A DNA stretch of 64,000 bases from Pempheris klunzingeri (taxonomy: Eukaryota; Chordata; Actinopteri; Acropomatiformes; Pempheridae). The DNA lies in the NCBI RefSeq assembly GCF_042242105.1, contig NC_092032.1:12449915-12513914 (forward strand). Direction: 5' to 3'. Position numbers and translations under genes: made by a program. The first letter of the stretch is position 1. Each line of letters opens with the position of its first letter. The notes under the pieces were generated by a model that was given only the letters and a program-made list of their open reading frames with translations, made no database searches and was not told where the DNA came from. Shown here one piece after another: positions 13,771 through 58,870 of this stretch.

Positions 13771-15073
13771 ATGCCCACGATGTGTGGAGGGACCTCCTCG
13801 GCGGCCGATGCCAACGAACAAATCCAGACGATCTGTGATAAGGTAAGTAGAGAAGAAAGGAATAGGTCTATTATTAGTGTCGCACTTGGACTTTTTCCCT
13901 TTAAAACAAAGAGCACACAGTAAATGGGGCTTGTGTGTCATTTTAATGTTGTCGTGTGATTGTTTCTCAGGTGAAGCCCCATGCTGAGCAAAAAGCAGGG
14001 AAGACTTATGATGTTTTCACTGCCAAAAGTTTCACTAAGCAGGTCGTGTGCGGGACCAACTACTTCATTAAGGTAAGTATTACTTACAAGGAGCACAAAA
14101 GGGCTCACTACAAACACAAATGACTGGAAACTAGCGTAGTTTCAAGATCAAGTGATATTTAAAGCGGCTATGATCGATATTTTTATATACAAACAATGGG
14201 TCACATGACTACTTGTATGTGACAGTGGTTGTAGTGATGGGCCCTCACTTGAGCTTTTTTTTTTTTTTTTTTTTGGCCCAAGACTTTGTGGTTCGTTGTT
14301 GCTGTTAAAAACCTGTATAAAACCCAGTATGCACCTTCTGTCCAGCACTAAACTGCAGACAGACAACACCTAACACCTGGTAAACATAGCGGAGCATTTA
14401 GCAGCTACAGAGCCAGGTGTTTGTCTCAGGAGTTGGTGGAGACCAAAACAGAGATAGACGAGAGTGAACATTGCACAGTAAAAAGAAGAAGCTGAAAAAA
14501 CTGAATAAATGAATTTCATGACAGCAAACTAGAAAAAATTTAAGCTTGAAACGGACAAAATTAGGGAGTGAACTCCGAAAATTGCTGTTAACTCAAGTTA
14601 ACAGAACTTTCTCCCTTTATAATAACTCACAGATTAAAATTAAAGTATCTGGATTCACTTATGTTGAAGCAGGAGATTATCTTGATTTCAAGGCACAATT
14701 TCAGTTCTTACTTAAAATGCTGATAAGTTATGTTTGGAAAACAACTGACTGTTGTGTAAGCCAAAGAATATAAGTTGATGTTTTTTTACAGTACGGACAC
14801 AAACACAACTTCAAGTAAATGCTAATGTTAGCTCCGTGTCTGCTGGATGTGTAATTAAGAAAAAAAATTCCATATCAAATTAGAAGAAGATCTTTGAATG
14901 CAGGTTTAAAGATCTACTGAAACGTTACTTTTTCTTCATTGCAGGTCCATGTGGGAGGAGAAGACCATGTTCACCTACGCATTCATGAAAAACTCCCATG
15001 TAATGGCGGAGACATTGAGCTGCATGACATGCAGCAATCCAAGAGCCAGCAGGACCCTGTCGTGTACTTCTAA
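13771..15073 (+). CDS. cstb: stefin / cystatin B-like cysteine protease inhibitor
   Basis: Exons 13771-13842, 13971-14072 and 14945-15073 give 100 residues with no signal peptide, the size and exon layout of type 1 cystatins. All three protease-contact elements are present: the N-terminal trunk MPTMCGG with its glycines, the first hairpin QVVCG at residues 48-52 (family QxVxG), and the second loop LPCNG. The C-terminus is DPVVYF, close to the ELTYF end of mammalian stefin B. It should block papain-like cathepsins (B, L, H, S) in cytosol and nucleus. It is the most stefin B-like member of the array and is separated from the recent duplicates by about 6 kb. Whether it is orthologous to CSTA or CSTB cannot be settled from the protein alone; synteny with mix23 fits the CSTA position. 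Confidence 0.92.
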
Positions 15074-18000
15074 AGGGATCCCAAACCAAGCGAAGCATCA
15101 GTGCCTACACGTTGCCATCTCAATATAATATTGTTAGTAAGCGATCCTGGCTCAATGTATAAAACAATGTTCTCATTCCTAACATGTAATAACATACTCT
15201 GTACTTACTGTAGATCATGATGTTAGAGCATGTCAAAATTGAACTATTTTGTGCAAAATGAATTAATAAATGTATCACATTTGTTATGATTCTGTGTGTT
15301 GCTTTTCCTTCTGTGGTATATGATTTGTAAAATAGCTACAGGCCACGGCGTATGCCTTCAGCTGGCACCCTGTGTGATGAAAAAGGACTGGGCAAAGCCA
15401 TTTATCCACAGAAAAAATGAAGACAAACATGGTTTGTTGATCACTTGATTGATTTTAGGGATCAAACAGTCCCCTCTGAAGCTGTCTGCTTTATGTTACA
15501 TTTGTGGAAAATCCTCCTGGTAGTATTTTACATAGATTTGTTTATTAGCAGGAATACAACTCACTGTTCCTTCAACAATCTAAACATGAGATGAACTGCA
15601 TACTTGAATGCCTTAACCTCTCCTACTCCCCTGACCTGCCAGTGCGCTAGTCTTTGCAAGCACATGCAATGTAGACACATATTTTTCAAACCCACAGAAC
15701 ATAACTTTAAATTCTAGGGCAGAACCAAACGTTTCTAAAGATTACAAATATGTCAGGGGAAAATGTGTATGAAATCATGCAGAAGACATTTAAATGATTT
15801 ACATTTGCTGGAATGGTGCAGCCAGGGCACTCTTCCCCAGTCACTTAATGATATGAACAGTTAAAATGTTCACACACACAGTACAGAAGTTGCTTACTGA
15901 AACTGTATAATATTCTTATATGATCTCTGTCAGGTTTTAGAACATATGATACAATTAAGTAACTTACAATGAACCAGAAAAAAAGGCACAAGAAGTCTAA
16001 TCCACTTCCACTGTTCATAGCAGGAAAAGCTCAGGTGTATTTAATGACAGTAAAAATGGCCGCCTTCCATTTAGGTGAGTCAGTTCCAAGGGCCTGGTAC
16101 TCTGCAGTGCCCACTCACAGGCATGGCTCACTGGGACACTTTACATTATTGTCACAAGGCTCGAAAAAACCTGAAACTCAGCCTTTGACCCGTGAATGTC
16201 TGTCAATAAATCTATCTGACTCTCCTTTCTTGTCCTTTCTTGTTCCAGAAGACTTAAAAACGTCTTGCACTGAGCCATGAGTCATAGTATATATAGTAAA
16301 TACCTCCACTTTGCTTGAACAAAGACACACTGTATAAACTAAGCATACATTTATGAATCACACCCACTGCACTGAACTTGATGAGGGATCGGTGTGTAAA
16401 GGATGAATATGAAAGAAAAGACATTAACTGTCGAATCTGAACATCTATCTAAAAAACATGTCATCAAGTTTTAAAACAATTTAAAGCAATTATTGCTGCA
16501 TTTAACTATTATTTAATGACTTTTTATAAAGATTTTTCACATTTTCAAATAAATAATCAAAATGTAGTTTAAGCAATCTGTTTATAAATTTGTTTTAAAG
16601 GTATATCAATCAACCTCTTTAATTAACCACCGTCACCGTCTGTAACTATTCATGGTACACAGCACAGGCTACATGCTACAGAGACAAACATACAGTCACA
16701 TTCACATTCACACTCACTGCAGCCCACGTAGTTAGAAATGACTGTACCACTATCCGCACTTGCTACTTCAACTAACTAATGACACTCTAGCTGTGCTGAG
16801 CCACATTAGGTTGCATGTCAGCAGTATTTGTAAATCCATGTACCTCATATGTCAACCACATCCCTTCTTCATCTTGTGACTACTGCTCCTCTTGTTTAAG
16901 CACATGCTGCGTGAATTTTTGCTCCCATTTACAAATTGAATAAGAATATTCTTCTACTTCTACTCCTACTTCTTCTACTTCTACTGTGACCCTCTAACAT
17001 GCCTTTCCAAGAGAGAAAACATGATGCACTGCCATAATGGCTACCATACATGCTAGAAAAGGGTTTTTGGCAGTTTCACCATAAATGCACCACGACTTTC
17101 TGCACATTGGTGCTCCATTGCATGCGTTTGTTTAAGAACAGCAAAAGCTGGAATAAGTAAAATCTGATAGTGATCCCAACATACTGTTTCACACACAAAT
17201 TTTTCTCATTGAAAGCTTGTTTGGCTGTAAAAACCTAGAAATTATTAGTCACGACTGTGCCACACTTTTTGCTCTCAGGTGTGGCTGCGCAGTCTAAAAA
17301 CGTTGCTTTATATCTCAGCAGTGAGCAAGTTTCTGTTGGAACCTGCGAGACAAGTTATAAACAGAGCTCAAATAGATTTACTGACAAAATGTCATGTGTC
17401 AAAAGTTCAGTTTTTCACAACGTTTCCAGCAGCCTCTATCAGGTTTCCAGAGCACCGTGACACTCAGCTTTTTCCATCTATCTTGTTGTGTTGTTGAGCG
17501 ATTGTTTTGACAGAGTGTTCAGAGTAAGTAATACAGAATTCTCACTGCAGAACTCCAATGATGCTGGCAGTAAATGTGAGTAAATGGTCGACACTTTCCT
17601 TAAGATAGAATTCAGGAGCTCCAGGACTTAAATTAATTATCATGAGTCAGATTATGGAGTTGGTAAACTGGTAGTGAATTAGAGGCTAATTAGGGATTAA
17701 GAGTGTGGGCAGCATGTTGGTTTGGTTGGTTTAAGTTTAAGTAATTTCCTTCGGGATCAATAAAGTTGATCTTATCTTATCATACAGAAGAAAAAAGAAG
17801 AATAATTAAAATCTGATCTGACATGCCATTATCAGTATGTAGGACTATAAGACATGATGGGCAAATATAGCCTAAGAAAACTGCCAATGTCAAACAAACC
17901 AATGAAATGAACAATTTTTACAAATCAAAAAGTTTCAAATGTTGCAGCTGTAGACTGCTCTTACACCATCAAAAAAACATTAAACAAACTTTGTGCTGCC

Positions 18001-20620
18001 CTGGTAACAATTGTGGATAGTGGTATAATCAACTGTTTCAACATTTCTAACTACAAGGCCAGCAGTGACTGCGAATTTAAATGTGATTTCATTTTGTTAT
18101 CTGTGTGTCAAAAGCCCATAGTTTGTGCTGTGCACCAGAATAATTACAGAATCTAACAGTAGTTAATTAAAGAGGTTGACCATATCACCGTATCATTAAG
18201 CCTTTGCTCTAACAACAGCAGCCCAGATATGAACTTTTTGAAATGGTCCAGGAGACTGCCTTCACTGAGAACAGCCGGCGAACAGGCTACAATGGCTGTA
18301 ATGCAATCCTTCGGGGCAATTGCGCCTGATTAAAGCACGTCCACTAAAAGGGATTGTTTTGCCGCTGACAGGCTCATATTGCTATTTTAAATGTCTGGTT
18401 ATTTTTTCTCAAATAGTAAGATTCTCTTTTCTTTTTATTATTGCTCCACATGCTGATGGAATGATTTCAACAACTTTTGTACTTATAATCTATTTTTTAT
18501 CTCTTTTAATTCTATATTCTTATATAGGATGCCTTTCTGACATCTGTCCAGGGAGTACAGATAAAAAAAATACTTTGGCATTTGGTTCCCTCTTGTGTTA
18601 AAAACAAGAATTACATTACTGCTCTCCTGCCTGTGCTCTTTGATGATGAACACATTTTCAGTATTTTCGATTCCTACTGCAGCTACTGCACCACCTCAGA
18701 TGTTAGTCATTCCTCATCTGAAGTGTGCTTTTGATAAATAGCACATTTTTATTTAGTGATTTCATGTGTATTATTACATCTATCTCCACACTCCATACAT
18801 GTTTTAAAGCCTTTATTTGTTTTCTTTTGGGTGAATTGACACCATCAAAAGTTTGCCAAATTAACTATTAGCAGGTTCTGTTCACAATGTGTTCATGGAC
18901 ATACAGACACCTGTCACTGGATTACTTAGATAGTGAAGAAAACTTAAAACATGATGAAAATCATTCAAGTTCTGGAGGAGCTATGTTTCTTCTAATGGAT
19001 TTCTAGGCCTACCTCTGAGCACTAGATGGAGTAGGAGTACTGTATGTCATTAGAGACTGCAGAGAAATGCATACAGTTTTGGACTTGGCCAAAAAGCTGA
19101 ATTTACATTTGAATTCAAGAGAGATCTGCATATTCAGGTTGGCTGTTGACCTTAAAATAAGCAGTATATTCTCGTTTTGCTTTGTGACATGCTGTTAAAA
19201 ACTCAATTATGAGAACAATGTGGAGGCTCCTTAATTAGACTCCATAAAAAGACTCCTTAATTAACAACTATTATTATTATATTAATTATTAATAATAGTG
19301 AGTAATGCACTTGTAGAATATTCCAATGCCAGGTTTACATATAGTATTTCAGAGGTGTGATGTATATTACTGTTAGCAATGTCACTGAGAAAAATCTTTT
19401 CATTAAAATAATTTAAATTTGTTTTGATAAAAATCCAAGAGCTCAATCTTTGCAGTCTAGCACTTTGAGCACAGGTCAGAGGCCAGTGGTCATTATGTCC
19501 TATTGGACAAAATCAAATCTATCAGTGATGATATTAAGGGATTCTTTAGATTGGGTCTGGTCACCTCGTTAATCAGCCTTTGACAGATTGAGGTTGTCAC
19601 ACATTTCTTTTAGACTACTTGAATCATTAGTCAGCCAATTCAAAATTCTTTGAAATCAGCATCTCTGAGTTACCTCAGGGCACTCAGGGCAGCTGAAGAT
19701 GGTCTGTATATACCCACCACACTAATTGAATTATCACTAGATACGTTAACTTTCAGAGCAATACATTCAAGGAATAAGATACAGTGACAGCATTTAACAA
19801 GGTAACAGTTAAATATGATTTCACATGCAGCCACACCAAATCAATTTTCTCATCTAACTCTCACAATTTCTTTGATTTGATTTTGTAGCCACAAAGGTAA
19901 AGTAGAAACACTGTAACGCCACGTTGACATATTACATCACCTTATCACCATTTGTCTAATTTGTTAGAAACAACAATACAGGATACAGACTGGGTGTGTG
20001 ACTCTTGGATGAAGTAGATGTGTAACTGCAGCTCTCATAATTCTGGTGAATTGCCCAAATTGTGTTGCTGTGCTGTGCCAAAGTTGTGTTTGGTATATTG
20101 TGTGAATCAGATTCTTGTCATCTGGTGCATCTTCAAAGCAGCTATAATCAATATAATAACTTTGAACTGAAATGGTGAAACCAACATCCACAGTGGGGCT
20201 GATACTGAGTAGTTTGCTTCTCACACACCCTTTCCTCTACGGCCTGGTGGTGAGTTAATGTCTCCTTCACCAGAATTTTGCTTCCAGGAGTAAATAAAGG
20301 CTTATCTTATCTTGCCTTACTTCAAACAAAGTCTATTTAATTTCTGTCTCCATCAAAGTAATTTCCTCATAGTTCATTCTGACCACTTTCAGATAAATGA
20401 ACATGTTACCTATAATCAAAAACTCCTTTAGTGGAAGCAGGCTTATATTAGCGACAGGTCTTTATTTCTAATTCTGCATCTGAAATGTATTTTGTGGGTT
20501 GGCTCAGGCTACTACTGGTTAGATATAGTAATAATGAATTTGATTTAAAAAATCTAATATTGTTGACAATGAAAAAATACTTTTACGTGTAGAATGTTCA
20601 CTCCTAAAATGTTAACGATT
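15074..20620. other. long intergenic region between the first and second stefin genes
   Basis: No supported gene over 5.5 kb. AATAAA-type polyadenylation signals follow the cstb-like gene near 15,265. A LINE-like 3' tail (TTCCTTCGGGATCAATAAAG) lies at about 17,690-17,785. A 40 bp segment at 18,581-18,620 recurs inverted near 34.0 kb. From about 20,012 to 20,400 there is an old diverged copy of the array spacer. Confidence 0.55.
20012..20400 (+). repeat. ancient copy of stefin-array spacer repeat
   Basis: Matches 23806-24225 with clear divergence. Shared runs include GCAGCTCTCATAATTCTGG, GAATTGCCCAAATT, CTTCAAAGCAGCTATAATCA and GATACTGAGTAGTTTGCTTC. It shows that a unit carrying this spacer was duplicated well before the recent 4.87 kb event. 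The gene belonging to this spacer copy is absent or is the distant cstb-like gene. Confidence 0.75.
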
Positions 20621-21120
20621 CACCTCCCATAAGTGTTGAACGTTGGACATCAGAGAAAAAGTAAGAAGACTTAAGTCCTTGATTGTTGTGTGTTTCATGG
20701 CTGTTGAAACTGTTTCAAATTACCAGTCGTACAGTATGTTTTCACTCTCTAAATAATCAGCTCTGCAAAGTTGTAGTAAAACACTGATTTTACAGCACTT
20801 GTCAGCACTGAAACAGTGTCAGAAAATAATAGTTATAGAGTACATTTGTACTCTCCAAGTGTTCAAATGTCACTCGATATTTAGAGTATACATTTTACCC
20901 TGTTGACAGTGAACAGGGCTGTATATACTGAAGGTGGTGTTGAATGTACTCTTTTACAGTATATTATACACTGTGATATTGGCTGTGTAGAAATGTGGAA
21001 ATAAATTCATACCAGAGGAAGAAAACCAACCAATGTCATGTGAGGGTTGTAGTCACTCATGTAGCTCCACCCAACATGTAGTGGAGCCACCTTCAGGTCT
21101 GCCCAGCGGTGGTTAATCTG

Positions 21121-21128
21121 TATAAATA
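21121..21128 (+). promoter_or_regulatory. TATA box of stefin copy 1
   Basis: TATAAATA lies 96 bp before the ATG. The same box occurs at 25990-25997 (copy 2) and 30871-30878 (copy 3). It is missing from the truncated fourth copy. Confidence 0.75.
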
Positions 21129-21216
21129 CATGTGTGTTTGATAAACAGTTAAAACACTTGAGACACATTAAAGCAGGCAGTTCACTTCTCTGTTAACTTC
21201 AACAGAATTTGTGTCA

Positions 21217-21761
21217 ATGGCTCAAATGCTCGGAGGATTCAGCGACCCAAAGGATGCCACTGAGGACATTCAGAGGATCTGTGATCAGGTGAGCTTCAGT
21301 CTACCTTCATTCTTCACAACCTCCACACACAACTCTGCTCTGCATTTACATCACATTTTACTTCATTCATACACAGGTGAAGCCCCTGGTGCAGGCAAAG
21401 ACAGACAAGATCTATGAGGAATTCAGAGCAATTCAGTACAGGGAGCAGGTTGTGGCTGGAGTCATCTACCTTATCAAGGTAATTGTTGTTATTATATTAC
21501 TTCATTTGAAAGAGAAGTGAAAAGCTTCAGATTTATGGACTGAATTAAATGTGACTGCTCCTCACTGCTCAACAAAACAACATCCGGATGAATTTATCAA
21601 TTTAGATGTCCAATTTTCCTCTTTTCCCACAGGTCGATGTTGGAGGACGGAAATTCATTCATCTGAAAGTCCTACAAGTTCTTCCCTGTAACGGAGGAGG
21701 ATTGGAGCTGCTCGGTTTACAGCAGGACAAAACCAAAGAAGAACCCCTTGTACCTTTCTAA
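21217..21761 (+). CDS. stefin (type 1 cystatin) array copy 1
   Basis: Exons 21217-21288, 21377-21478 and 21633-21761 give 100 residues with no signal peptide. Exon lengths 72/102/129 match the cstb-like gene exactly. The inhibitory elements are intact: MAQMLGG trunk, QVVAG at residues 48-52, and LPCNG near residues 75-79. The C-terminus is EEPLVPF. It is expected to inhibit cytosolic papain-like proteases. The ATG at 21217 follows GTGTCA and is the first AUG after the TATA-directed start. The gene in the next unit differs at only a few residues. Polyadenylation signal candidates (AATAATAAAG) lie near 21,935. Confidence 0.9.
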
Positions 21762-22599
21762 AGTTGAACACTTGCAGGCTGCAGCCTGCTCTGCTTCTGT
21801 ATTCTGAAATAATTCTACACCAAAATGTTCCTTTACAATACATCATTGTTTGATTTTGAATGTATTCAAAGTTAGAGATGAAGACATTTGTTGTTTGGAA
21901 GCAGCAAGTTGAAGCAATTACTTTCTAAAGAAATAATAAAGAAAGCATAAACATATCTTCATACATTTCCTGTGGTTCTTGTGTGCAGCAATTTCTTTTC
22001 TTTTATGAGGTCTGATTAAAAAACAAAAACAAACACAAATGGTTGAAAATAAATGTAGCAATTCTTCTAGTTTACACAAACCTTAACATGGACAGAGATT
22101 TTTACCTTCACTTAAACATATACCTCTATACATACTTCTGACATTAAAAACGAGTGGGCACGGTGCAAAATGTAACCAAACAAAGAAATACCCCGAAGTA
22201 CATTTTCTCTGCTTTCCTGACATGAACATATGTTCTTAGCTGAAATCTCTGCTGCCTCGTTTAAAATGCTCTGCTCCTTTATCCAAAATGATTACACACG
22301 ATATACAATACTCCTTTATAATTTAGTTATATGCAGTTGTGTGTGTTAACAGGGGAGAATATTCAGAGTTGAGGGGGAAGAAGTTGAATGTTTTATTTTG
22401 TGAAGGAATATTTTAAGTAAAGCAACAGAAAAATTACATTTCTTAGTTACAGCAAGTCAGTTGAATGATTCAGTTTTTTGTTATTAAACCAATTTTTTCA
22501 GGCTGAAATTCTAAAATGTTTTAATAAAATGCATCTTTGTCTTCCATTACACACGAGGACTCTGCCTCAGCTGTTTTTGCACAAATACTCATCTAATAT

Positions 22600-22800
22600 G
22601 CTGTCACGACACTGCACTACCGCCACTGTTGTAGATAGGTTGATTCTTATTTATTCTTTATATTTTTTCTATCTTCTTTCTTTGTTTTATTTGTTATTTC
22701 TATTTTTATATACTGTTAAGGTGAGAGAGAAACAGTATTTCGATTCTACTGTTTGTCCTTGTACATACAGCAAAATTGACAATAAAAATCATCTGAACAA
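22600..22800 (+). repeat. LINE-type 3' tail in unit 1
   Basis: Contains GAGAGAAACAGTATTTCGAT, CCTTGTACATACAGC and a terminal GACAATAAA run, the 3' end of a common fish retroposon. The same tail is at 27,467-27,668 in unit 2. It has no coding part. Confidence 0.5.
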
Positions 22801-23538
22801 AAGAGAAGGAACAGCTGTAAGAAATCAAACTTTCTGTTGTTTATCTAGAATATTCCCTCTCAGAATAAAACATTCCTCCTTCTCAGCCCTGAAAATCCTC
22901 ACTTGTTAACACACACATAACTGTATATAACTTAATAGTAAAGTATATTATATATAGTGTGTAATGATCCTGAGATAAAGGAGCAGAGCATTTTAAATGA
23001 GACTGCAGGAATTTGGCGAAGAAGAACTTTTGGCAAGAAAGCAAATGCACCTATTCCCCATAATGTTACATTTTATCAAATCATGCAAATTGTTTTGATG
23101 CCAAATGTGTCAAATCAGGGCTTCTTTACTTTCCTGATAAAAATCTGGTTACATTTTTTAATGTCAAAGCTTGCCTCAGATGATGACGGTTTATCTGAAC
23201 CTGGCATACAAATTAGTCTTAAAGTCTTTAAGAGTTATCATTTGCACAGCTTTGCACAATTGTTCAACAGAGTACAGTTGTTTGGTGACAGCATTTCAGG
23301 TCAGTACTTGTTACTTGTAAATACTTGTAGGTCATTGAACTTCCTCATTTCACATGTGTATTTTGTGAGGTTGAGAGCTTCTCCGCACCCTTTGTTACTG
23401 CACAAATACGCGAAACATGTAAGAAATCTTTCATCCTTCTACACATCCTACATATCAGTTGAAGGAATTACTCAACAGTTCCTCAGAATTTTCTTAGCAG
23501 TGCAGTTGCAACATCTGAAGACATTTTGGGTGAAATAA

Positions 23539-23805
23539 CTGGGTGGTTAGCACTGTTGCCTCTCAGCAAGAAGGTTCCAGGTTTGAATCCCGGTTTGAAC
23601 CTGGGTCTTTCTGTGTGGAGTTTGAATGTTCTCCCCGTGCTAGCGTGGGTTCTCTCCGAGTACTACGGCTTCCTCCCACACTGTATGTCCTGTGTGTCTT
23701 TGTGTGTATGTCCAGTCCTGTGTGTACCCCGAAGTCAGCTGGGATTGACTCCAGTTCCCCCGCGACCCTGACGGATAAGCGGTATAGATAATGGATGGAT
23801 GGATA
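23539..23805 (+). mobile_element. tRNA-derived SINE in unit 1
   Basis: The head GGGTGGTTAGCACTGTTGCC resembles a tRNA A box and GGTTTGAATCCCGG resembles a B box. The body CTCCCCGTGCTAGCGTGGG leads to GGATAAGCGGTATAGATAAT and an (ATGG)n tail. This is a very common fish dispersed repeat. The copy at 28,407-28,673 comes from the tandem duplication, so insertion predates it. Confidence 0.75.
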
Positions 23806-24225
23806 GATGTGTAAGTGCAGCTCTCATAATTCTGGTGAATTGCCCAAATTTGGTGTATTGTTTTTCACACATATTCTGGTGCATCTTCAAAGCAGCTATA
23901 ATCAGTATAATAGCTTTATATTAACAAATGATCAAATAACTAAAAATATGAGTGTTTAAGTGTTGAACTAAAACGTCCATAGTGAGGCTGATACTGAGTA
24001 GTTTGCTTCTCACACACCCTCTCCTCTGTGGCCTGGTGGTTAGTTAACGTCTCCTTCCCCAGAATTTTGCCTCTTGGAGTAAATACAGGCTTATCTTATC
24101 TTACCTTACTTCAAATTAATAATGACCAAGTGTTCTGGAGGCGTTCAAACAAAGTGTATTTTATTTCTGTCTCCATCAAATTGATTTCCTCAAAGATCAT
24201 TTTGACAACTTTCAGATAAACAAAC
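23806..24225 (+). repeat. array spacer repeat in unit 1
   Basis: Diverged relative of 20012-20400, of about 33,722-33,845, and, inverted, of about 32,226-32,310. Its recent twin is 28,674-29,093. Useful shared phrases are GGCCTGGTGGTTAG and GGCGTTCAAACAAAGTGTAT. Confidence 0.8.
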
Positions 24226-26085
24226 ATTATTTTGCATGTCAATGAAATATTTCGCATGTGTGGAGTTTTAGAAATTTCAGGCCTTTAGGAGAGAGATTGT
24301 TTTTTTATTTGCAATTCTAGATTTTGATAAAATTTTCTCATATTTTAGTATGAAGCATAAAGGCATTTATTGGCAGGAAAGTGGAAAATGTAGTAACTGT
24401 CACCGTTTCCATACACCACTTTGTGGTACTTGTATGTTACTACAAAATACAATTTGACTGGGACAAAAACATACAAACGCACAGTGACTGAAATGCAACA
24501 TTAGATTGTTGAATGTATTCCTTTAAATGAAACATTATGACTTTGGCCATAGGTTTTGAGTGAAATCCTTTCACACTATTGGATCTCCATGTCATTTGGG
24601 ACAGATACTTCAGGTCACTCTCAGAATTAGTTGTAATTACTGAGGTGAGCCTTCCCTCTAGCACCATCATCAGAACAAAGTATCAGTTTGTACAGTACTT
24701 TGGTTGTTAGATGGCTTGTTCTTCAGAATTTTAGCTGTAGGGGGAAATAAAGGCTTGTCTTATATTATTCATAGATCATTGCCACCCTCCTACAACCTGA
24801 GAGGGACACACCCTCCCGGCTGGAGAGAGATGCATCCATCAACACTGATAGGTGTGATGTCACTCACCTGAGAGGAACCCGAGGGGAATTGACAGGACCT
24901 GGCACTCCCTACCAGCTCCTAGGAACTCACAGTGGCTGAATTTGCCCTCACTTTGTCCCTGTACCGTTATATAATTTGTTCCACCCTTCCCTGACTTCAG
25001 GTCAGAGCTGAATAACTACTTGTCCCTGATTCTTGATCTGACTTTGTGTTTCTGTGGCAACACTTCAGGCTGTTGATTTCACCACTACTACTTGCTCCAC
25101 CTGTGGCAGAACCCACATCAGACCTACTTGTGCTCCTTACCCAACTAAGCGCAGTTTGAGTACATACCTCACTACCCCATTACAATCAATGCTCTAGCTT
25201 CTGTCTTAAAAAACTCACCCAGACCGCCAGTTTGTTAACTTCCTCATATAAGAGTTCACACAGATTTGCAGGTTGTACCTGATTTATCTCACACAATTCA
25301 CAATTTTCAATTAGTTATCTCTGAGTCCAACACTGTCGACAGTCTCCAAAGGAAATTAAAGACGGATTTGCTCACATTTACAGTCAGTCTGATAGGCATA
25401 GCTAGGGAAATCCTCAGGAAAAAAAGAGACTTACGCTGAGCCAGGGTTATCCCACTCCCCGCATCACCTCATCCCCCCCTCTGGACTTTCACCTCCCATA
25501 AGTGTTGAACGTTGGACATCAGAGAAAAAGTAAGAAGACTTAAGTCCTTGATTGTTGTGTGTTTCATGGCTGTTGAAACTGTTTCAAATTACCAGTCGTA
25601 CAGTATGTTTTCACTCTCTAAATAATCAGCTCTGCAAAGTTGTAGTAAAACACTGATTTTACAGCACGTGTCAGCACTGAAACAGTGTCAGAAAATAATA
25701 GTTATAGAGTACATTTGTACTCTCCAAGTGTTCAAATGTCACTCGATATTTAGAGTATACATTTTACCCTGTTGACAGTGAACAGGGCTGTATATACTGA
25801 AGGTGGTGTTGAATGTACTCTTTTACAGTATATTATACACTGTGATATTGGCTGTGTAGAAATGTGGAAATAAATTCATACCAGAGGAAGAAAACCAACC
25901 AATGTCATGTGAGGGTTGTAGTCACTCATGTAGCTCCACCCAACATGTAGTGGAGCCACCTTCAGGTCTGCCCAGCGGTGGTTAATCTGTATAAATACAT
26001 GTGTGTTTGATAAACAGTTAAAACACTTGAGACACATTAAAGCAGACAGTTCACTTCTCTGTTAACTTCAACAGAATTTGTGTCA

Positions 26086-26630
26086 ATGGCTGACATGCCC
26101 GGAGGATTCAGCGACCCAAAGGATGCCACTGAGGACATTCAGAGGATCTGTGATCAGGTGAGCTTCAGTCTACCTTCATTCTTCACAACCTCCACACACA
26201 ACTCTGCTCTGCATTTACATCACATTTTACTTCATTCATACACAGGTGAAGCCCCTGGTGCAGGCAAAGACAGACAAGATCTATGAGGAATTCAGAGCAA
26301 TTCAGTACAGGGAGCAGGTTGTGGCTGGAGTCATCTACCTTATCAAGGTAATTATTGTTATTATATTACTTCATTTGAAAGAGAAGTGAAAAGCTTCAGA
26401 TTTATGGACTGAATTAAATGTGACTGCTCCTCACTGCTCAACAAAACAACATCCGGATGAATTTATCAATTTAGATGTCCAATTGTCCTCTTTTCCCACA
26501 GGTCGATGTTGGAGGACGGAAATTCATTCATCTGAGAGTCCTACAAGTTCTTCCCTGTAACGGAGGAGGATTGGAGCTGCTCGGTTTACAGCAGGACAAA
26601 ACCAAAGAAGAACCCCTTGTACCTTTCTAA
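26086..26630 (+). CDS. stefin (type 1 cystatin) array copy 2
   Basis: Exons 26086-26157, 26246-26347 and 26502-26630 give 100 residues. Compared with copy 1, the trunk reads MADMPGG instead of MAQMLGG, and VLQ is preceded by LR instead of LK. QVVAG and LPCNG are unchanged, so inhibitory function is expected. It lies exactly 4,869 bp from copy 1 in the same orientation with the same TATA promoter, so both are likely co-expressed. Three of the few coding differences fall within about ten bases of the trunk that enters the protease active-site cleft. Confidence 0.9.
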
Positions 26631-27466
26631 AGTTGAACACTTGCAGGCTGCAGCCTGCTCTGCTTCTGTATTCTGAAATAATTCTACACCAAAATGTTCC
26701 TTTACAATACATCATTTTTGATTTTGAATGTATTCAAAGTTAGAGATGAAGACATTTGTTGTTTGGAAGCAGCAAGTTGAAGCAATTACTTTCTAAAGAA
26801 ATAATAAAGAAAGCATAAACATATCTTCATACATTTCCTGTGGTTCTTGTGTGCAGCAATTTCTTTTCTTTTATGAGGTCTGATTAAAAAACAAAAACAA
26901 ACACAAATGGTTGAAAATAAATGTAGCAATTCTTCTAGTTTACACAAACCTTAACATGGACAGAGATTTTTACCTTCACTTAAACATATACCTCTATACA
27001 TACTTCTGACATTAAAAACGAGTGGGCACGGTGCAAAATGTAACCAAACAAAGAAATACCCCGAAGTACATTTTCTCTGCTTTCCTGACATGAACATATG
27101 TTCTTAGCTGAAATCTCTGCTGCCTCGTTTAAAATGCTCTGCTCCTTTATCCAAAATGATTACACACGATATACAATACTCCTTTATAATTTAGTTATAT
27201 GCAGTTGTGTGTGTTAACAGGGGAGAATATTCAGAGTTGAGGGGGAAGAAGTTGAATGTTTTATTTTGTGAAGGAATATTTTAAGTAAAGCAACAGAAAA
27301 ATTACATTTCTTAGTTACAGCAAGTCAGTTGAATGATTCAGTTTTTTGTTATTAAACCATTTTTTTCAGGCTGAAATTCTAAAATGTTTTAATAAAATGC
27401 ATCTTTGTCTTCCATTACACACGAGGACTCTGCCTCTGCTGTTTTTGCACAAATACTCATCTAATA

Positions 27467-27668
27467 TGCTGTCACGACACTGCACTACCGCCACTGTTGT
27501 AGATAGGTTGATTCTTATTTATTCTTTATATTTTTTCTATCTTCTTTCTTTGTTTTATTTGTTATTTCTATTTTTATATACTGTTAAGGTGAGAGAGAAA
27601 CAGTATTTCGATTCTACTGTTTGTCCTTGTACATACAGCAAAATTGACAATAAAAATCATCTGAACAA
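27467..27668 (+). repeat. LINE-type 3' tail in unit 2
   Basis: Tandem-duplication twin of the tail at 22,600-22,800, with the same GACAATAAA end. Confidence 0.5.
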
Positions 27669-28406
27669 AAGAGAAGGAACAGCTGTAAGAAATCAAACTT
27701 TCTGTTGTTTATCTAGAATATTCCCTCTCAGAATAAAACATTCCTCCTTCTCAGCCCTGAAAATCCTCACCTGTTAACACACACATAACTGCATATAACT
27801 TAATAGTAAAGTATATTATATATAGTGTGTAATGATCCTGAGATAAAGGAGCAGAGCATTTTAAATGAGACTGCAGGAATTTGGCGAAGAAGAACTTTTG
27901 GCAAGAAAGCAAATGCACCTATTCCCCATAATGTTACATTTTATCAAATCATGCAAATTGTTTTGATGCCAAATGTGTCAAATCAGGGCTTCTTTACTTT
28001 CCTGATAAAAATCTGGTTACATTTTTTAATGTCAAAGCTTGCCTCAGATGATGACGGTTTATCTGAACCTGGCATACAAATTAGTCTTAAAGTCTTTAAG
28101 AGTTATCATTTGCACAGCTTTGCACAATTGTTCAACAGAGTACAGTTGTTTGGTGACGGCATTTCAGGTCAGCACTTGTTACTTGTAAATACTTGTAGGT
28201 CATTGAACTTCCTCATTTCACATGTGTATTTTGTGAGGTTGAGAGCTTCTCCGCACCCTTTGTTACTGCACAAATACGCGAAACATGTAAGAAATCTTTC
28301 ATCCTCTTACACATCCTACGTATCAGTTGAAGGAATTACTCAACAGTTCCTCAGAATTTTCTTAGCAGTGCAGTTGCAACATCTGAAGACATTTTGGGTG
28401 AAATAA

Positions 28407-28673
28407 CTGGGTGGTTAGCACTGTTGCCTCTCAGCAAGAAGGTTCCAGGTTTGAATCCCGGTTTGAACCTGGGTCTTTCTGTGTGGAGTTTGAATGTTCT
28501 CCCCGTGCTAGCGTGGGTTCTCTCCGAGTACTACGGCTTCCTCCCACACTGTATGTCCTGTGTGTCTTTGTGTGTATGTCCAGTCCTGTGTGTACCCCGA
28601 AGTCAGCTGGGATTGACTCCAGTTCCCCCGCGACCCTGACGGATAAGCGGTATAGATAATGGATGGATGGATA
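28407..28673 (+). mobile_element. tRNA-derived SINE in unit 2
   Basis: Twin of the SINE at 23,539-23,805, carried along by the 4.87 kb duplication and not an independent insertion. Confidence 0.75.
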
Positions 28674-29093
28674 GATGTGTAAGTGCAGCTCTCATAATTC
28701 TGGTGAATTGCCCAAATTTGGTGTATTGTTTTTCACACATATTCTGGTGCATCTTCAAAGCAGCTATAATCAGTATAATAGCTTTATATTAACAAATGAT
28801 CAAATAACTAAAAATATGAGTGTTTAAGTGTTGAACTAAAACGTCCATAGTGAGGCTGATACTGAGTAGTTTGCTTCTCACACACCCTCTCCTCTGTGGC
28901 CTGGTGGTTAGTTAACGTCTCCTTCCCCAGAATTTTGCCTCTTGGAGTAAATACAGGCTTATCTTATCTTACCTTACTTCAAATTAATAATGACCAAGTG
29001 TTCTGGAGGCGTTCAAACAAAGTGTATTTTATTTCTGTCTCCATCAAATTGATTTCCTCAAAGATCATTTTGACAACTTTCAGATAAACAAAC
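28674..29093 (+). repeat. array spacer repeat in unit 2
   Basis: Recent twin of 23806-24225, with almost no differences by eye. Confidence 0.8.
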
Positions 29094-30370
29094 ATTATTT
29101 TGCATGTCAATGAAATATTTCGCATGTATGGAGTTTTAGAAATTTCAGGCCTTTAGGAGAGAGATTGTTTTTTTATTTGCAATTCTAGATTTTGATAAAA
29201 TTTTCTCATATTTTAGTATGAAGCATAAAGGCATTTATTGGCAGGAAAGTGGAAAATGTAGTAACTGTCACCGTTTCCATACACCACTTTGTGGTACTTG
29301 TATGTTACTACAAAATACAATTTGACTGGGACAAAAACATACAAACGCACAGTGACTGAAATGCAACATTAGATTGTTGAATGTATTCCTTTAAATGAAA
29401 CATTATGACTTTGGCCATAGGTTTTGAGTGAAATCCTTTCACACTATTGGATCTCCATGTAATTTGGGACAGATACTTCAGGTCACTCTCAGAATTAGTT
29501 GTAATTACTGAGGTGAGCCTTCCCTCTAGCACCATCATCAGAACAAAGTATCAGTTTGTACAGTACTTTGGTTGTTAGATGGCTTGTTCTTCAGAATTTT
29601 AGCTGTAGGGGGAAATAAAGGCTTGTCTTATATTATTCATAGATCATTGCCACCCTCCTACAACCTGAGAGGGACACACCCTCCCGGCTGGAGAGAGATG
29701 CATCCATCAACACTGATAGGTGTGATGTCACTCACCTGAGAGGAACCCGAGGGGAATTGACAGGACCTGGCACTCCCTACCAGCTCCTAGGAACTCACAG
29801 TGGCTGAATTTGCCCTCACTTTGTCCCTGTACCGTTATATAATTTGTTCCACCCTTCCCTGACTTCAGGTCAGAGCTACTTATAATAATATAATAACTAC
29901 TTGTCCCTGATTCTTGATCTGACTTTGTGTTTCTGTGGCAACACTTCAGGCTGTTGATTTCACCACTACTACTTGCTCCACCTGTGGTAGAACCCACATC
30001 AGACCTACTTGTGCTCCTTACCCAACTAAGCGCAGTTTGAGTACATACCTCACTACCCCATTACAATCAATGCTCTAGCTTCTGTCTTAAAAAACTCACC
30101 CAGACCGCCAGTTTGTTAACTTCCTCATATAAGAGTTCACACAGATTTGCAGGTTGTACCTGATTTATCTCACACAATTCACAATTTTCAATTAGTTATC
30201 TCTGAGTCCAACACTGTCGACAGTCTCCAAAGGAAATTAAAGACGGATTTGCTCACATTTACAGTCAGTCTGATAGGCATAGCTAGGGAAATCCTCAGGA
30301 AAAAAAGAGACTTACGCTGAGCCAGGGTTATCCCACTCCCCGCATCACCTCATCCCCCCCTCTGGACTTT

Positions 30371-30966
30371 CACCTCCCATAAGTGTTGAACGTTGGACAT
30401 CAGAGAAAAAGTAAGAAGACTTAAGTCCTTGATTGTTGTGTGTTTCATGGCTGTTGAAACTGTTTCAAATTACCAGTCGTACAGTATGTTTTCACTCTCT
30501 AAATAATCAGCTCTGCAAAGCAGTAGTAAAACACTGATTTTACAGCACTTGTCAGCACTGAAACAGTGTCAGAAAATAATAGTTATAGAGTACATTTGTA
30601 CTCTCCAAGTGTTCAAATGTCACTCGATATTTAGAGTATACATTTTACCCTGTTGACAGTGAACAGGGCTGTATATACTGAAGGTGGTGTTGAATGTACT
30701 CTTTTACAGTATATTATACACTGTGATATTGGCTGTGTAGAAATGTGGAAATAAATTCATACCAGAGGAAGAAAACCAACCAATGTCATGTGAGGGTTGT
30801 AGTCACTCATGTAGCTCCACCCAACATGTAGTGGAGCCACCTTCAGGTCTGCCCAGCGGTGGTTAATCTGTATAAATACATGTGTGTTTGATAAACAGTT
30901 AAAACACTTGAGACACATTAAAGCAGGCAGTTCACTTCTCTGTTAACTTCAACAGAATTTGTGACA
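30371..30966 (+). promoter_or_regulatory. third copy of the stefin promoter segment
   Basis: About 596 bp nearly identical to 20621-21216 and 25490-26085, including the TATA box. Matching stops being near-perfect at the start codon of copy 3, whose gene body is much more diverged. This is the right-hand junction of the tandem duplication. Confidence 0.88.
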
Positions 30967-31667
30967 ATGGAACAGTGGAGTGAGACAAAGGATGCCACTG
31001 AGGAAACTCAGAGGATCTGTGATCAGGTGAGCTTCAGTCTACCTTTTTTCTTCTCAACCTCCACAAACACAAGTCTGTGCTCTGCATTTACATCACATTT
31101 TATTTAATTCATATACAGGTGAAGCCCCAAGTGGAGGAAAAGACAAAGAAGAAATATGAGGCATACAAAGCATTTGAATACAGGATGCAGACATTGTGTG
31201 GAGGGACAAACTACCTCATCAAGGTAATTGATAATGTTATATTATTTATTTGAAAGAAAAGTAAAAAGCCTCAGATATATGGACTGAATTAACTGTGACA
31301 TCTAGGTGACTCATTAAACACTGCTCCTTACTGCTCAACAACACAACATCCTGATGAATATATTGTGTGTTCAGTGTTCAGCATGGGAGGAGAACTGCTG
31401 ACGCTTACAGAGCAAACAAGATATACTCTGCAATACCAAACAAAACAAACTACAAATTAACTACGAGTTTATGTCCAGTTTTAGATTACCTTTCATTTTA
31501 TACAAGCAAACCTAATGAAGATTCTTCTCCCACAGGTTCAAGTTGGAAGAGTGAGCTACATTCATCTGAGTGTCAACAGTCCTTTTTATGACGGGTACGA
31601 ACAACAGTTTGATCTGAAAGGTGTAGAGGAGGACAAAACCAAAGAAGACCCCCTCGTACCTTTCTAA
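30967..31667 (+). CDS. divergent stefin-like gene, array copy 3
   Basis: Exons 30967-31026, 31119-31223 and 31536-31667 give 98 residues with no signal peptide. The fold-level features remain: ICDQVKP, TNYLIKVQVG and a DPLVPF end. Every protease-contact element is altered. The trunk is MEQWSETKD with no glycine. The first hairpin reads QTLCGG at residues 44-49, with one extra codon relative to QVVAG. The second loop LPCNG is replaced by SPFYDG. The open frame and good splice sites argue for a working protein whose inhibitory target or role has changed. A gene beginning to decay is the alternative. Its promoter is nearly identical to that of copies 1 and 2. Confidence 0.85.
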
Positions 31668-32225
31668 AGTCAAACACTTACAGGCTGCAACATCATATTA
31701 AAATGCTCTGCTTCTGTATTCTGAAATGATTCTACCCTACGATGTTCCTTCAAAGTTAGAGATGAAGACAGTTGGTGTTTGGAAACAGCAAGTTGAATCC
31801 ATTACTTTCTCAAGGAAAAATAAAGAGAGCATAAATGTATTTTCACATGTCTTTTGTGGTTCTTATGTGCAGCAATTTCTTTTCTTTTGAGAAGTCTGAT
31901 TTTGAAAATAAGCATAGTCTCAGCTGGCAGAGACGGTTAGAATTAAATTTAGAAATCCTTTTAGTGTACACAAACCTTAACATGGACGTAGACTTTTAAC
32001 ATCACTGTAATCAAATATTACAAGATTTCTGATCACACAGACAGGAAACATTTTCTTGAGGAGAAAAAACTATTTCATACATTAAAACAATTTTAACATA
32101 AACTTCTACACATATGATTTTTAAAACTCCATGCATGCAGAGATTTAGACTGAATGCAGCATAATGCTTATTTATTTGAAAACATTCAAAATGATCCATG
32201 AAGAGATGAAAATTTGACAGACAAT

Positions 32226-32310
32226 AAAATACACTTTGTTTGAACGCCTTCTGAACAATTTACTCTCGGAGGTGTCTAACCACCAGGCCATAGAGGACAT
32301 CACGCTGCAT
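32226..32310 (-). repeat. inverted old copy of array spacer
   Basis: On the minus strand this reads CTATGGCCTGGTGGTTAG and later GGCGTTCAAACAAAGTGTAT, matching the spacer at 24,010-24,165. It lies downstream (minus strand) of the inverted stefin relic, the order expected for a whole inverted unit. Confidence 0.7.
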
Positions 32311-32616
32311 AATTTCTCACACCAGCCCTTGGAAGACTCTCAAGTGAAGATAACTGTCTCCTCCTGCATGAACCTGCAGGGAAAAGACAATAAAATTGGA
32401 CTACTAAATGAATATAATCATCTTGTCATCTTGTCTTGTCTCACAGTAAGGGTCATCTAACATCTGGGATCAGTTTAACAACTGGACTGCCCTGCTATGA
32501 ACTACTTCATAAGATACATCAAAAGATCATCAAGAGGATAAGTGGGCAGTGCGATTAGTCAGTCAGTTAATCTGAAGCCTTTAAACATTTATTAAAACAT
32601 CACAAAATTAGTTATC

Positions 32617-32812
32617 TTGATGAAGAAGTTTGTTCCAGCCACAATCAATTTCTCATGTGTCTTCTTTGTTTTGTCCCCTACTTGGGCCTTTATGAAAACA
32701 CAGCACATCCAGACTGATATGCAAAGTATAGCATGTAGAGATTTTGGAGAAAAAAAGTGAATTAAAGCTCACCTGATCACAGATCTTCTGAGTTTCCTCA
32801 GTAGCATTTTAA
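32617..32812 (-). pseudogene. inverted stefin relic (exons 1 and 2)
   Basis: The minus strand at 32812-32771 reads NATEETQKICDQ followed by a GTGAGC donor, matching stefin exon 1 and closest to copy 3 (ATEETQ). Further along, 32690-32617 reads KAQVGDKTKKTHEKLIVAGT and then NFFIK, matching exon 2 with its middle deleted. No start codon context, exon 2 acceptor or exon 3 was found. The intron between the pieces has shrunk to under 100 bp. It is a non-functional remnant of an old inverted array unit. Confidence 0.75.
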
Positions 32813-33721
32813 CTTAAATTGACTGAGATTGTAACTGTTGTAAATTGCAACTGTGTATCAAATACAGTATATACTGGGTACCAATCCCTGCATGTTCACT
32901 GGAAAGTGGCTCCATGTTGGGTGGTATGTGTAACGTGTGTAGGTGTTTTCCCACAAATTCCAGCTTGCAGGTTCGTCTGTCCAACTCCCCTCAGAAATCA
33001 GTGGATCAACAACAGCCGGCATTAATGCAAAGTACAACGATGAAAATCAAATCAGAACAGACATTGTTTTTTAAATGATTCTTTTTACAACTTTCTCTTA
33101 AATGCCATCATATGCTGTATCTGGTGAGACATTACAAATCAACATCTGAACATAATATTCATGTAAAGGAATTTGTGGTATGATAACTTCTGGATGGAGG
33201 CAGATCGGTTTCATGCGATAACATACCCGTAGGCACTGAAAGAGGCAACTCCATGAGCTGGGAAATGGCGTTCCCTGCATCTTTGTCTTCGATATTAAAG
33301 GAGACAATTCAGTTGCTTTACTCCAAATAAAAATAATGATTTCATGAAGACATTTTATTTCATTATCCTTGGCTCCGAATAAAGTTTATCTATTGAATGT
33401 TGAAATTGATGTACAGAATCAATCAGTCTTTATTATTTTAGTTACAGTATTCCTGTTTCTATTCTGACTGGCTCTGTTTAGGTTTCAGTGAAATGTCCAC
33501 CAGTGATAAGCCATTTTGATAGCTGTTTTACTTTCTTTTATCTGTGTCATCTGTGTGCCTCTGCAATGAGAAAACTTGAACACATTTTAAGAATTAAAAT
33601 GGTGGCTCTGATGTTTGACATTTTGGGTGGAGCTGGAGTATTTATGTGGTCACTGTTGCTCATCTTTTATGAATTACTCCCCAATTCCAGTTTAGTTTGA
33701 TGCTTCCCAAGAACTGTATCC

Positions 33722-33845
33722 TTCCAACTGTGTAAATCAGATTCTGATCATCTGACATTTCTTTAAAGCAGCTATACATCAACACTTTTATATTAGTAAA
33801 AGATCAAATAATGACACAAATATGAAATGTGTTGCTTGTAGTGAC
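33722..33845 (+). repeat. third old copy of array spacer
   Basis: TGTGTAAATCAGATTCTGAT, TTTAAAGCAGCTATA and AGATCAAATAA match parts of 20,100-20,160 and 23,880-23,940 with clear divergence. Confidence 0.6.
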
Positions 33846-34200
33846 AAACTCACAGATAATTATCTCTGTATTCTGCAGCTCCCCTCAGCTCTATGGAGCA
33901 TTTATCCACTCACTGGTGAACATAGTGGAGCATCATATTTCACTTAACATTCATCAAGTGGACAAAAGCCGGATTCCAAATGAATGTTAAGGAAAGAAGT
34001 AATGCAATTCCTGTTTTTAACACGAGAGGGAACCAAACAACAAAGATTATTCATACGTTTTGTAGCTGATAAGAAGAGAAATGAAAATATATCTTAATCC
34101 CAGATATCATTTTAGTGTGATTGGTGACACTTAAATGAGACAGACAATTCAGCCAAGAGAACTTGTTTATGTCAGGAAAGCATTTCATCATTTGGCTATA

Positions 34201-34999
34201 CAGTTGCACTCAAAATTATTCAACCCCCATTGCAAATTAGGTGTAATTTACAAACTTTCAGCTGAGATCAATGAACAGCTCAAACAAGAACACCTGCAAT
34301 AGCTCAGCATAACTAATATTACAGGTGGTTTCTCCATATTGAGCACAACATGTCACATTTAATGACTACAACAGTCTCAAAATTATTTAACCCCTTCTTG
34401 ACAAGCATCAGTACACACAGTGTGTGCCTCATTCTTCTTCCTCCAGACATACCGCTGATCCAAAGACCTGAAAAGTTCCAGTTTTGTTTCATTGCTCCTC
34501 GGAACAGAATTCCAAAAACTTCTGTGGCCTATTTATGTGGTTTAGAGCATATTGGAGCTGACTTCTCTTGTGCTTTTGGATCAGTGGTGGTGTACATCTT
34601 TGAGTTTGGACATGGACCCCTTCAGTGTTTAGTATGCGCCTTACTGTAGAAACTGAAAGCCAGTCTTTCTTTAGCTTTGAACTTGTGAACTATGCTTTCA
34701 ACAGCATCTCAAGGAACATTCAGTGCCTTTGCTGTCTTTTTTTTTTAATCCTTTTCCTTGTTTGTGCAAGACAATGATTTCCTCTCTTAACTTTTTGGAC
34801 AATTTTCTTGACTTCTTGACTAATTTTAAGACTGCATTAGTTGCAATACGTGGCATATTGTATTGAATTGAAGCCACCTGTAATATTAGTTGTGTTGAGC
34901 TATTTCAATTGCTCTTGTTTGAGTTGTTCATTGATCACAGCTAAAAGTTTGTAAATTTCGCCAATAATCCTAATTTGCAATGGGGGTTGAATAATTCTG
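34201..34999. mobile_element. Tc1/mariner-like element with long terminal inverted repeats
   Basis: TA dinucleotides flank the element at 34199-34200 and 35000-35001. The left end runs through AAAATTATTCAACCCCCATT and GCAAATTAGG; the right end is its inverted repeat (CAATGGGGGTTGAATAATTC). Inverted similarity extends about 130-150 bp, through AATGAACAGCTCAAACAAGA. The middle holds fragments resembling a fish Tc1-type transposase, with stops. The element is about 0.8 kb, internally deleted and inactive. Confidence 0.75.
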
Positions 35000-35353
35000 T
35001 ACAAAATGTTTTTTGGTTGACGGACTGTCAGAAGTAACTGAATAAGAAAATGTTTCCTGGTTTGTGTCATCAGAACTAACACCATGAGGAAGTTTTTGAC
35101 TTGTACAATTGAGTGAAATAAAATAAAATCTAGATGGTTTGTGTAAAAGAAAAGAAGCATAAGAAATATATAAAGATGTGTTTTTGCTTTCTTTATTATT
35201 CCTTTAGAAAGTGGTGGATTCAACTTGTGTCGTGAATGTACACCTACGCTATATGCTATAATGTCTATTTTATCATTTCATATTATTGTTATTGCTGTCT
35301 TATTGGTATGGTAAAAAAGGACTTTGAGTGATATTCCAGCAAAATTGATTATC

Positions 35354-35559
35354 GTGCTTCCAGAAGTGATATGAATACTTGTGTTTGTAGACATGCTTGG
35401 CTCAGAAAAGGTGAATATAAACTTAGCTATCATACTATTTCCTGTTTTCAACCATAGTGTTTCCAGAAATGATATGAACACTTGTGTTTGTAGGCATGCT
35501 TGGCTCAGATAAGGGGAATGAAAACCTGGCATATCATACCATTTACAGTTTTCAACAAG
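35354..35559 (+). repeat. 103 bp direct tandem repeat, two copies
   Basis: GTGCTTCCAGAAGTGATATG at 35354 recurs as GTGTTTCCAGAAATGATATG at 35457, and the following ACTTGTGTTTGTAG and CATGCTTGGCTCAGA match too. The array sits directly upstream of the truncated stefin promoter. Confidence 0.8.
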
Positions 35560-36146
35560 CTCCACCCAACATGTAGTGGAACCACCTTTAGATGTGCCCA
35601 GTGGTAGTGTTTGATAAACAATTAAAACACTTGAGACATTCAGAGGATCTGTGATCAGGTGAGCTTCAGTCTACCTTCATTCTTCACAACCTCCACACAC
35701 AACTCTGCTCTGCATTTACATCACATTTTACTTCATTCATACACAGGTGAAGCCCCTGGTGCAGGCAAAGACAGACAAGATCTATGAGGAATTCAGAGCA
35801 ATTCAGTACAGGGAGCAGGTTGTGGCTGGAGTCATCTATGTTATCAAGGTAATTATTGTTATTATATTACTTCATTTGAAAGAGAAGTGAAAAGCTTCAG
35901 ATTTATGGACTGAATTAAATGTGACTGCTCCTCACTGCTCAACAAAACAACATCCGGATGAATTTAACAATTTAGATGTCCAATTGTCCTCTTTTCCCAC
36001 AGGTCGATGTTGGAGGACGGAAATTCATTCATCTGAAAGTCCTACAAGTTCTTCCCTGTAACGGAGGAGGATTGGAGCTGCTCGGTTTACAGCAGGACAA
36101 AACCAAAGAAGAACCCCTTGTACCTTTCTAAAGTTGAACACTTGGT
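35560..36146 (+). pseudogene. 5'-truncated stefin copy 4
   Basis: Exon 2 (35747-35848) and exon 3 (36003-36131) are almost identical to copies 1 and 2, including QVVAG, LPCNG and PLVPF, with their introns. Only the last 23 bp of exon 1 remain (35636-35658), joined directly to AAACACTTGAGAC from the promoter, so the ATG and trunk are gone and a TGA precedes the remnant in frame. The promoter at 35560-35640 has diverged and lost about 20 bp containing the TATA box. Homology stops just after the stop codon, near 36146. It is probably a pseudogene, though intact exons 2-3 could still donate sequence by conversion. Confidence 0.85.
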
Positions 36147-58240: not shown

Positions 58241-58242
58241 TT

Positions 58243-58320
58243 CTATATAACAGCCAGCGCCCTGTCCACTGGTCCTTCACACTGATGACAAAGCTCACAC
58301 AGAGACGGGCAAAGAAAGGT
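58243..58320 (+). promoter_or_regulatory. TATA box and 5' noncoding exon of copy B
   Basis: CTATATAA at about 58,243 precedes a likely noncoding exon ending GGCAAAGAAAG|GTACCT near 58,319. An acceptor (ATGCAG) just before 58,861 lies ten bases upstream of the ATG. This gives a 5' UTR split by one intron. Confidence 0.55.
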
Positions 58321-58870
58321 ACCTGCTGCTTGACTTCATCTTTATCGTGTGGGCACTCTCCTTTTGTTTTACTGTCAATGTTTTATTGTCCTAGAGGAAA
58401 CTTAGCATGGAGTGGTGGCATGTGGGCCTTTCCTATGTCACACAAGTAGATTTGATTTTCACAGTTTGAGATTTCAACCCTGGACATTTTAATTCTGAGA
58501 ATGATTTTGGTTTTTCTTGTTATGGCGGCAATCTTCAAAAAAAAGGTTAGAAGAAAACTAGTGATTTTTGAAAAACATTGTAGCTCACTGGATTTGTCTG
58601 AATGGCCTCTGTATATGGTAACTAATTATCACACATGCCATAGTTTGAGGCCAGGTTCAACTGCAGCTCATCAGCAATAATATTTGAAAAGCATTACTTT
58701 TCTTCCTCAAGGACACTTAAGCACATTTTCTTAGACTTAAACATCCTTATTTATTCTGTTTATTTTTAAAAAATGCAATGCAACTCTTCAGCATGTTGAA
58801 TATGCTCTATGTTTAATTAAATCTATCTTTTCTATTTTTGAATCATTTTAATTTCATGCAGCAGACCACG

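Follow-up and report, generated by a model that had tools for sequence, protein, structure and literature searches.

A stefin gene cluster of mosaic structure in Pempheris klunzingeri

Stefins, the type-1 cystatins, have three coding exons, no signal peptide and no disulphides. A stretch of 64,000 nucleotides from the fish Pempheris klunzingeri, referred to here as the window (C21:12449915-12513914), carries an array of them at 13.77-36.15 kb, and this array raises the question of whether such a cluster is shaped by birth and death of copies alone or whether the copies also exchange sequence. In PMC2784779 stefins are called single or small families that are evolutionarily stable, unlike type-2 cystatins. 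We found the array to comprise four intact three-exon stefin genes (S1-S4), a copy truncated at its 5' end (S5), an inverted relic (R) and spacer repeats, and we think it likely that this is a type-1 cystatin cluster at the vertebrate stefin A locus which evolves by tandem duplication, non-allelic recombination and decay. An earlier note on this DNA had already listed the four full genes, the truncated copy and the inverted relic, and when we read the exons, frames and GT/AG introns we found them where it had placed them. It had taken the array for layered birth and death; recent, old, truncated and inverted copies do coexist here, but the account is incomplete, as the mosaics described below point to exchange between copies. 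The promoter shared by S2-S4, the patch in S5 and the loss of motifs in S4 are new relative to that note, and sequence exchange is a process that it had missed.

All four intact genes have a start codon, an uninterrupted frame over three exons, GT/AG introns and a stop codon, with AATAAA at most 200 bp 3' of the stop. The Pfam Cystatin family (PF00031) was matched above cut-off by S1 (E 4e-13), S2 (E 2.5e-12) and S4 (E 5.9e-10; 39.7 bits against a cut-off of 22.2); the scan covered these three, and S3 was assigned by way of S2, from which it is three residues apart. The hallmarks of stefins given in PMC5072729 and PMC9203827 are Gly near the N-terminus, a QxVxG loop and Leu-Pro in the second hairpin, and we found these in S1 (GG...QVVCG...LP) as well as in S2 and S3 (GG...QVVAG...LP).

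The promoter block of S2, S3 and S4

S2 (plus strand, 21217..21761; intact, 100 residues, MAQMLGGFS..., QVVAG, LP), S3 (plus strand, 26086..26630; intact, 100 residues, MADMPGGFS...) and S4 (plus strand, 30967..31667; open, 98 residues; exons 30967-31026, 31119-31223 and 31536-31667) are each preceded by a block of promoter and 5' untranslated region (5'UTR), the P block, also on the plus strand (20619..21216 for S2, 25488..26085 for S3 and 30369..30966 for S4). These ~590 bp are >99% identical among the three genes, the P block of S4 being ~99.5% identical to that of S2; the bodies of S2 and S4 are 10-33% apart, depending on the region. Each block carries the tag CCACCCAACATG at -150, followed by TATAAA at -96; the window has this tag five times, always at a stefin promoter (those of S2, S3, S4 and S5 and, inverted, that of R). 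When we searched the S2-S4 alignment for a change point, the best one fell at 21213, 4 bp 5' of the S2 start codon, where the share of differing positions rises from 2 of 594 to 173 of 863, and its likelihood ratio of 178 compares with a maximum of 19.5 in 300 shuffles. By region, S2 and S4 differ at 3/585 positions in the promoter, 12/60 in exon 1, 9/88 in intron 1, 26/102 in exon 2, 22/148 in intron 2 (13/113 in its first part), 43/129 in exon 3 and 64/329 in the 3' flank. The P block also has an abrupt left end: 5' of it, unit 1 bears no relation to units 2 and 3, which resemble each other there.

Such a sharp promoter/body mosaic is what gene conversion or unequal crossing-over would probably leave. 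Selection alone might also keep the upstream blocks of S2, S3 and S4 alike, with no exchange, and the P block does hold a TATA box and a tag that in the window is limited to stefin promoters; we nevertheless regard this as very improbable, since ~590 bp at 99.5% exceeds what promoter constraint would be expected to give, the block stops abruptly at both ends, and the promoter remnant of S5 (plus strand, 35558..35635) is much more diverged, at 7 substitutions in ~80 aligned bases (R differs more). We therefore prefer sequence exchange between copies as the explanation of this mosaic and of the S5 patch described below, and as a consequence the age of a copy cannot be read straight from its identity. 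With its sharp boundary between promoter and coding region, the locus offers a clean natural example in which to ask how protein diversification can go on alongside gene conversion.

In the genome search, which like all those reported here covered a single assembly of 646 Mb in 439 contigs, four of the five matches to the P block lay in the array. The fifth, on another contig, joins 184 bp of the block (20804-20987) to C6:3694724-3694928 at 72%, and that locus (3.2 kb) did not convincingly match any stefin; this piece may be an ancient mobile element that was taken into the promoter.

The decayed copies and the recent tandem unit

S5 (plus strand, 35628..36144) consists of the end of exon 1 together with exons 2 and 3, and has no start codon. 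Its body is 98.6-98.8% identical to S2/S3 over 518 bp, a match that starts in exon 1 and ends 13 bp after the stop codon, but relative to them S5 is without 22 bp covering the TATA box, seen as a gap in its promoter remnant, and 103 bp covering the 5'UTR, start codon and N-terminus; we also read, by eye, an in-frame stop directly 5' of the exon 1 remnant. The patch includes three sites that vary between S2 and S3; at two of them S5 has the S3 base and at the third that of S2. A patch of ~98.7% beside an older promoter remnant is the pattern that conversion would likely produce. S5 may instead be a recent partial duplicate of S2/S3 that was inserted elsewhere, as its identity stops sharply past the stop codon and no homologous 3' flank adjoins, yet we find this doubtful given that the promoter remnant sits directly upstream, in the right order and place, and is clearly more diverged than the patch. 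Just 5' of that remnant is a 103-bp direct duplication (85%; 35351-35556), and between R and S5 are inverted repeats of 127 bp, 85% alike and ~540 bp apart (34214-34996), which look like the remnant of a Tc1-type transposon.

R (minus strand, 32323..32924) has its promoter tag at 32913 and exon remains near 32772-32812, 32615-32693 and 32323-32385; it carries stops, and its exon 2 is broken. In exons 1 and 2 it is closer to S4 (34/40 and 59/78) than to S2 (32/40 and 53/78), and it keeps a loop end of VAGTN type. The residues just after the loop are TN in S1, S4, R and human stefins A and B, and VI in S2 and S3; from this distribution TN looks ancestral, with VI in S2/S3 and the QTLCGG of S4 looking derived.

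The most recent layer is a tandem pair, with S2 in unit 1 (plus strand, 20619..25487) and S3 in unit 2 (plus strand, 25488..30368). The units differ by 21 substitutions in 4,868 aligned bases (0.43%) and by two indels of 1 and 13 bp, over 4,882 alignment columns, bearing out the claim of a recent, near-identical 4.87-kb duplication. Their coding parts differ by four nonsynonymous and no synonymous substitutions that change three residues (the chance of at least four of the 21 changes falling in the coding part is 0.038), and three of these substitutions are packed into 8 bp of the sequence for the N-terminal trunk, which reads MAQMLGG in S2 and MADMPGG in S3. The chance that three of 21 random substitutions fall in any 8 bp is 0.007, and the chance for the first 30 bp of exon 1, a post hoc choice, is 0.0002. 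Residues 1-4 of stefin A are among the cathepsin L contacts listed in a docking and dynamics study (PMC5072729). Each unit also contains a fold-back element (22233-23023 and 27101-27891) with arms of ~215 bp that are 79% alike.

We infer the order of events, and the kind of recombination behind them, from this anatomy. An old unit of spacer repeat, promoter and three-exon stefin would have been duplicated several times, and its descendants S2, S4, S5 and R, the last inverted, would have come to stand next to S1, which is older. Gene conversion or unequal crossing-over, the trace of which ends at the start codon, would later have made the S2 and S4 promoters near-identical, and a misaligned exchange between these promoters would then most likely have produced the 4.87-kb tandem copy with S3; the order P-S2-spacer-P-S3-spacer-P-S4 is what such an exchange between two P blocks would yield. 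The body of the decayed S5 would have been overwritten by S2-type gene sequence. The outcome would be three stefins on one shared TATA promoter, S2 and S3 with ordinary inhibitor motifs and S4 with an altered protease-binding edge.

Several observations weigh against this history. Of the four variable sites in the P block, two neighbouring ones mark off unit 3, the remaining two are unique to unit 2, and no site joins units 2 and 3 against unit 1; a middle block that is a crossover hybrid, which could be expected, is thus not visible in these sites. Divergence between S2 and S4 is uneven (introns ~10-15%, 3' flank 19.5%, exons 20-33%), so no single simple history fits all parts. Exon 3 of R is nearer to S2 and S1 (41/74 each) than to S4 (37/74), and R was absent from the results of the genome searches, which means that decayed copies elsewhere could be missed. 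Lastly, as there is a single assembly, S3 could be a second allele of S2 that was joined in tandem by the assembler, through a misjoin at the near-identical promoter before S4. Divergence of 0.43% is in the range to be expected between fish alleles, and the junction lies within the block that is repeated before S4. We nonetheless consider such a false haplotype duplication unlikely: apart from the 184-bp match above we found no near-identical P block or S2 exons on another contig, although a purged assembly would look alike, and four nonsynonymous to no synonymous changes, three of them within 8 bp, would be unusual for neutral alleles, though short of decisive. Neither the mosaics of S4 and S5 nor the old layers of the array depend on the 4.87-kb copy.

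S4 as an altered stefin

S4 has lost the N-terminal Gly trunk (MEQWSETK...), has QTLCGG in place of QxVxG and has no Leu-Pro, and its frame is open. Residues 5-98 match human stefin A (E 1.5e-17); judged by its sequence S4 is a stefin by homology, and the label "cysteine-protease inhibitor" is unsupported by motif. As described in PMC5072729 and PMC9203827, the three elements that S4 is without form the inhibitory wedge. A title cited within PMC5072729 gives QVVAG as not essential in cystatin A, so the loss of motifs in S4 is no proof of loss of function.

The ratio of nonsynonymous to synonymous divergence (dN/dS) is 0.85 for S4-S2 and 0.95 for S4-S3, against 0.24 for S1-S2, and a value near 0.9 fits both retargeting and erosion. 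These high ratios would suit a decaying gene whose binding edge erodes unselected, and since the chance of an open frame surviving 75 random substitutions is 0.068, its intactness could be luck. We see decay as quite possible. Against it, exon lengths changed from S2 to S4 by whole codons (72 to 60, 102 to 105 and 129 to 132 bp), with intron lengths of 88 against 92 and 154 against 312 bp, and splice sites, TATA box and AATAAA are all kept; the in-frame length changes and intact signals favour S4 being a live gene. Positive selection on S4 was considered and is not established. In its favour, exons differ at 81/291 positions and introns at 22/201 (Fisher p 5e-6), divergence at nonsynonymous sites is above that of introns (p 1e-4), and with the three contact elements set aside dN is higher than dS (0.243 against 0.15); against it, dS and dN are about equal (0.37 and 0.32) when all codons are counted, saturation affects dS within the contact elements, and divergence at nonsynonymous sites is not above that of the 3' flank (p 0.095).

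We also advance, very tentatively, the idea that the cluster is a promoter-locked diversification device, in which recombination would keep the control regions of neighbours identical but end at the start codon, so that new protein versions would be expressed at once with old ones. On this view S4 might be a stefin that was retargeted or is non-inhibitory, and it would be produced in cells that also make the normal inhibitors S2 and S3; the cluster of three N-terminal changes that sets S2 and S3 apart might be the next step in such retargeting.

Spacer repeats, neighbouring genes and related clusters

Spacer repeats on the plus strand were found in unit 1 (23781..24245) and unit 2 (28649..29113), at the left flank (19990..20420) and as a short remnant (33729..33811), and on the minus strand as an inverted copy (32117..32297). 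The two copies in the tandem units are 100% identical over 465 bp. The other three are old: for the 20.0-kb copy identity is 69% by BLAST, gaps included, and 84.4% over the aligned bases of a MAFFT alignment, for the inverted 32.2-kb copy 77.7% over 112 bp, and for the 33.7-kb copy 77-81% over only ~55 bp (E 1e-5 to 2e-8). The five spacer repeats of at least two ages that had been described are real, the old ones being partial. Additional short similarities of 44-61 bp occur at 24.7 and 29.6 kb. A genome search with the 20.0-kb copy found all three of its matches in the array, a result that concerns good copies only as the weak 32.2- and 33.7-kb copies went unreported; origin from a dispersed genome-wide repeat is therefore not supported for the 20.0-kb copy.

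S1 (plus strand, 13771..15073; 100 residues; exons 13771-13842, 13971-14072 and 14945-15073) keeps the QVVCG loop and LP, and has no TATAAA in the 200 bp upstream. S1, S2 and S4 matched human stefins A and B (PDB 1dvc, 1stf, 2oct) over nearly their full length, with S1 most similar to stefin B and S2 and S4 closer to stefin A by phmmer; unlike the human proteins, S4 is without the Gly trunk, QxVxG and Leu-Pro, and S2 and S3 carry VI for TN after the loop. A five-sequence tree test preferred S1, S2 and S4 apart from human A and B (p-AU, approximately unbiased, 0.864) and did not reject S1 with B plus S2 and S4 with A (0.144), while S1 with A was rejected (0.002). In a bootstrap tree of weak support human A and B joined at 87, and S4 was not grouped with S2 (46).

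Protein searches of the genome up to E 1 placed every match inside the array (12/12 for S2, 10/10 for S1 and 10/10 for S4), and with these queries we found no separate stefin B locus or second stefin locus, although short low-identity exons or relics such as R could escape. Three Pfam Cystatin matches were found in the genome, one being S1; the other two, on C12 and C19, were not convincingly matched by any of five stefin queries (best E 0.001), so they probably belong to other kinds of cystatin. A search for more stefins in the flanks of the window, ~10 kb each way, gave nothing better than E 0.33. Among viral contigs, 12 pattern matches to S2 relatives gave none confirmed, and the window has no RNA families at gathering score and no tRNAs.

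Adjoining the array are MIX23 (minus strand; PF09774, 34.6 bits against a cut-off of 25) and FAM162A (plus strand; PF06388/DUF1075, which we take to be the FAM162 family, 122.7 bits), both scored on exon pieces joined by eye, and nearby on the minus strand is an importin alpha gene whose best PDB match is importin alpha-5. The mouse, according to PMC2759285, has ten stefin genes (Csta, Stfa2l1, Stfa1-3 and others) in one cluster on chromosome 16 (16B3), likewise beside Ccdc58/MIX23 and Fam162a. The neighbours thus place our array at the locus of the mouse cluster, and the earlier note's statement that CSTA and CSTB are each kept as a single gene in mammals was wrong. The array here has four intact stefins against ten genes in the mouse cluster, and its S2-S4 share one homogenised TATA promoter. 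As every stefin detected in the genome is in one active cluster beside the neighbours of the mouse expansion, repeated expansion of a protease-inhibitor locus becomes testable.

Type-2 cystatins are the secreted, disulphide-bonded class. Their clusters (the CST3 group) likewise evolve by birth and death according to PMC2784779, and their organisation in human is reported to be tandem (PMC4201479). PMC2784779 was also the only paper that our literature search turned up on teleost stefin A/B synteny, and the same search, judged by title and the start of the abstract, found no paper on gene conversion among stefins.

Elsewhere in the window, 54556-60770 holds an older tandem duplication of what is apparently a small membrane-protein gene, of which the pieces that we scanned reached no Pfam cut-off. 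A rhodanese-domain gene, presumably resembling TSTD1, lies on the minus strand at 5550-5996 (PF00581, 63 bits on joined pieces), and a Nanos-type zinc finger gene at 52121-52573 is a single open frame of 150 residues (PF05741, E 1.7e-26).

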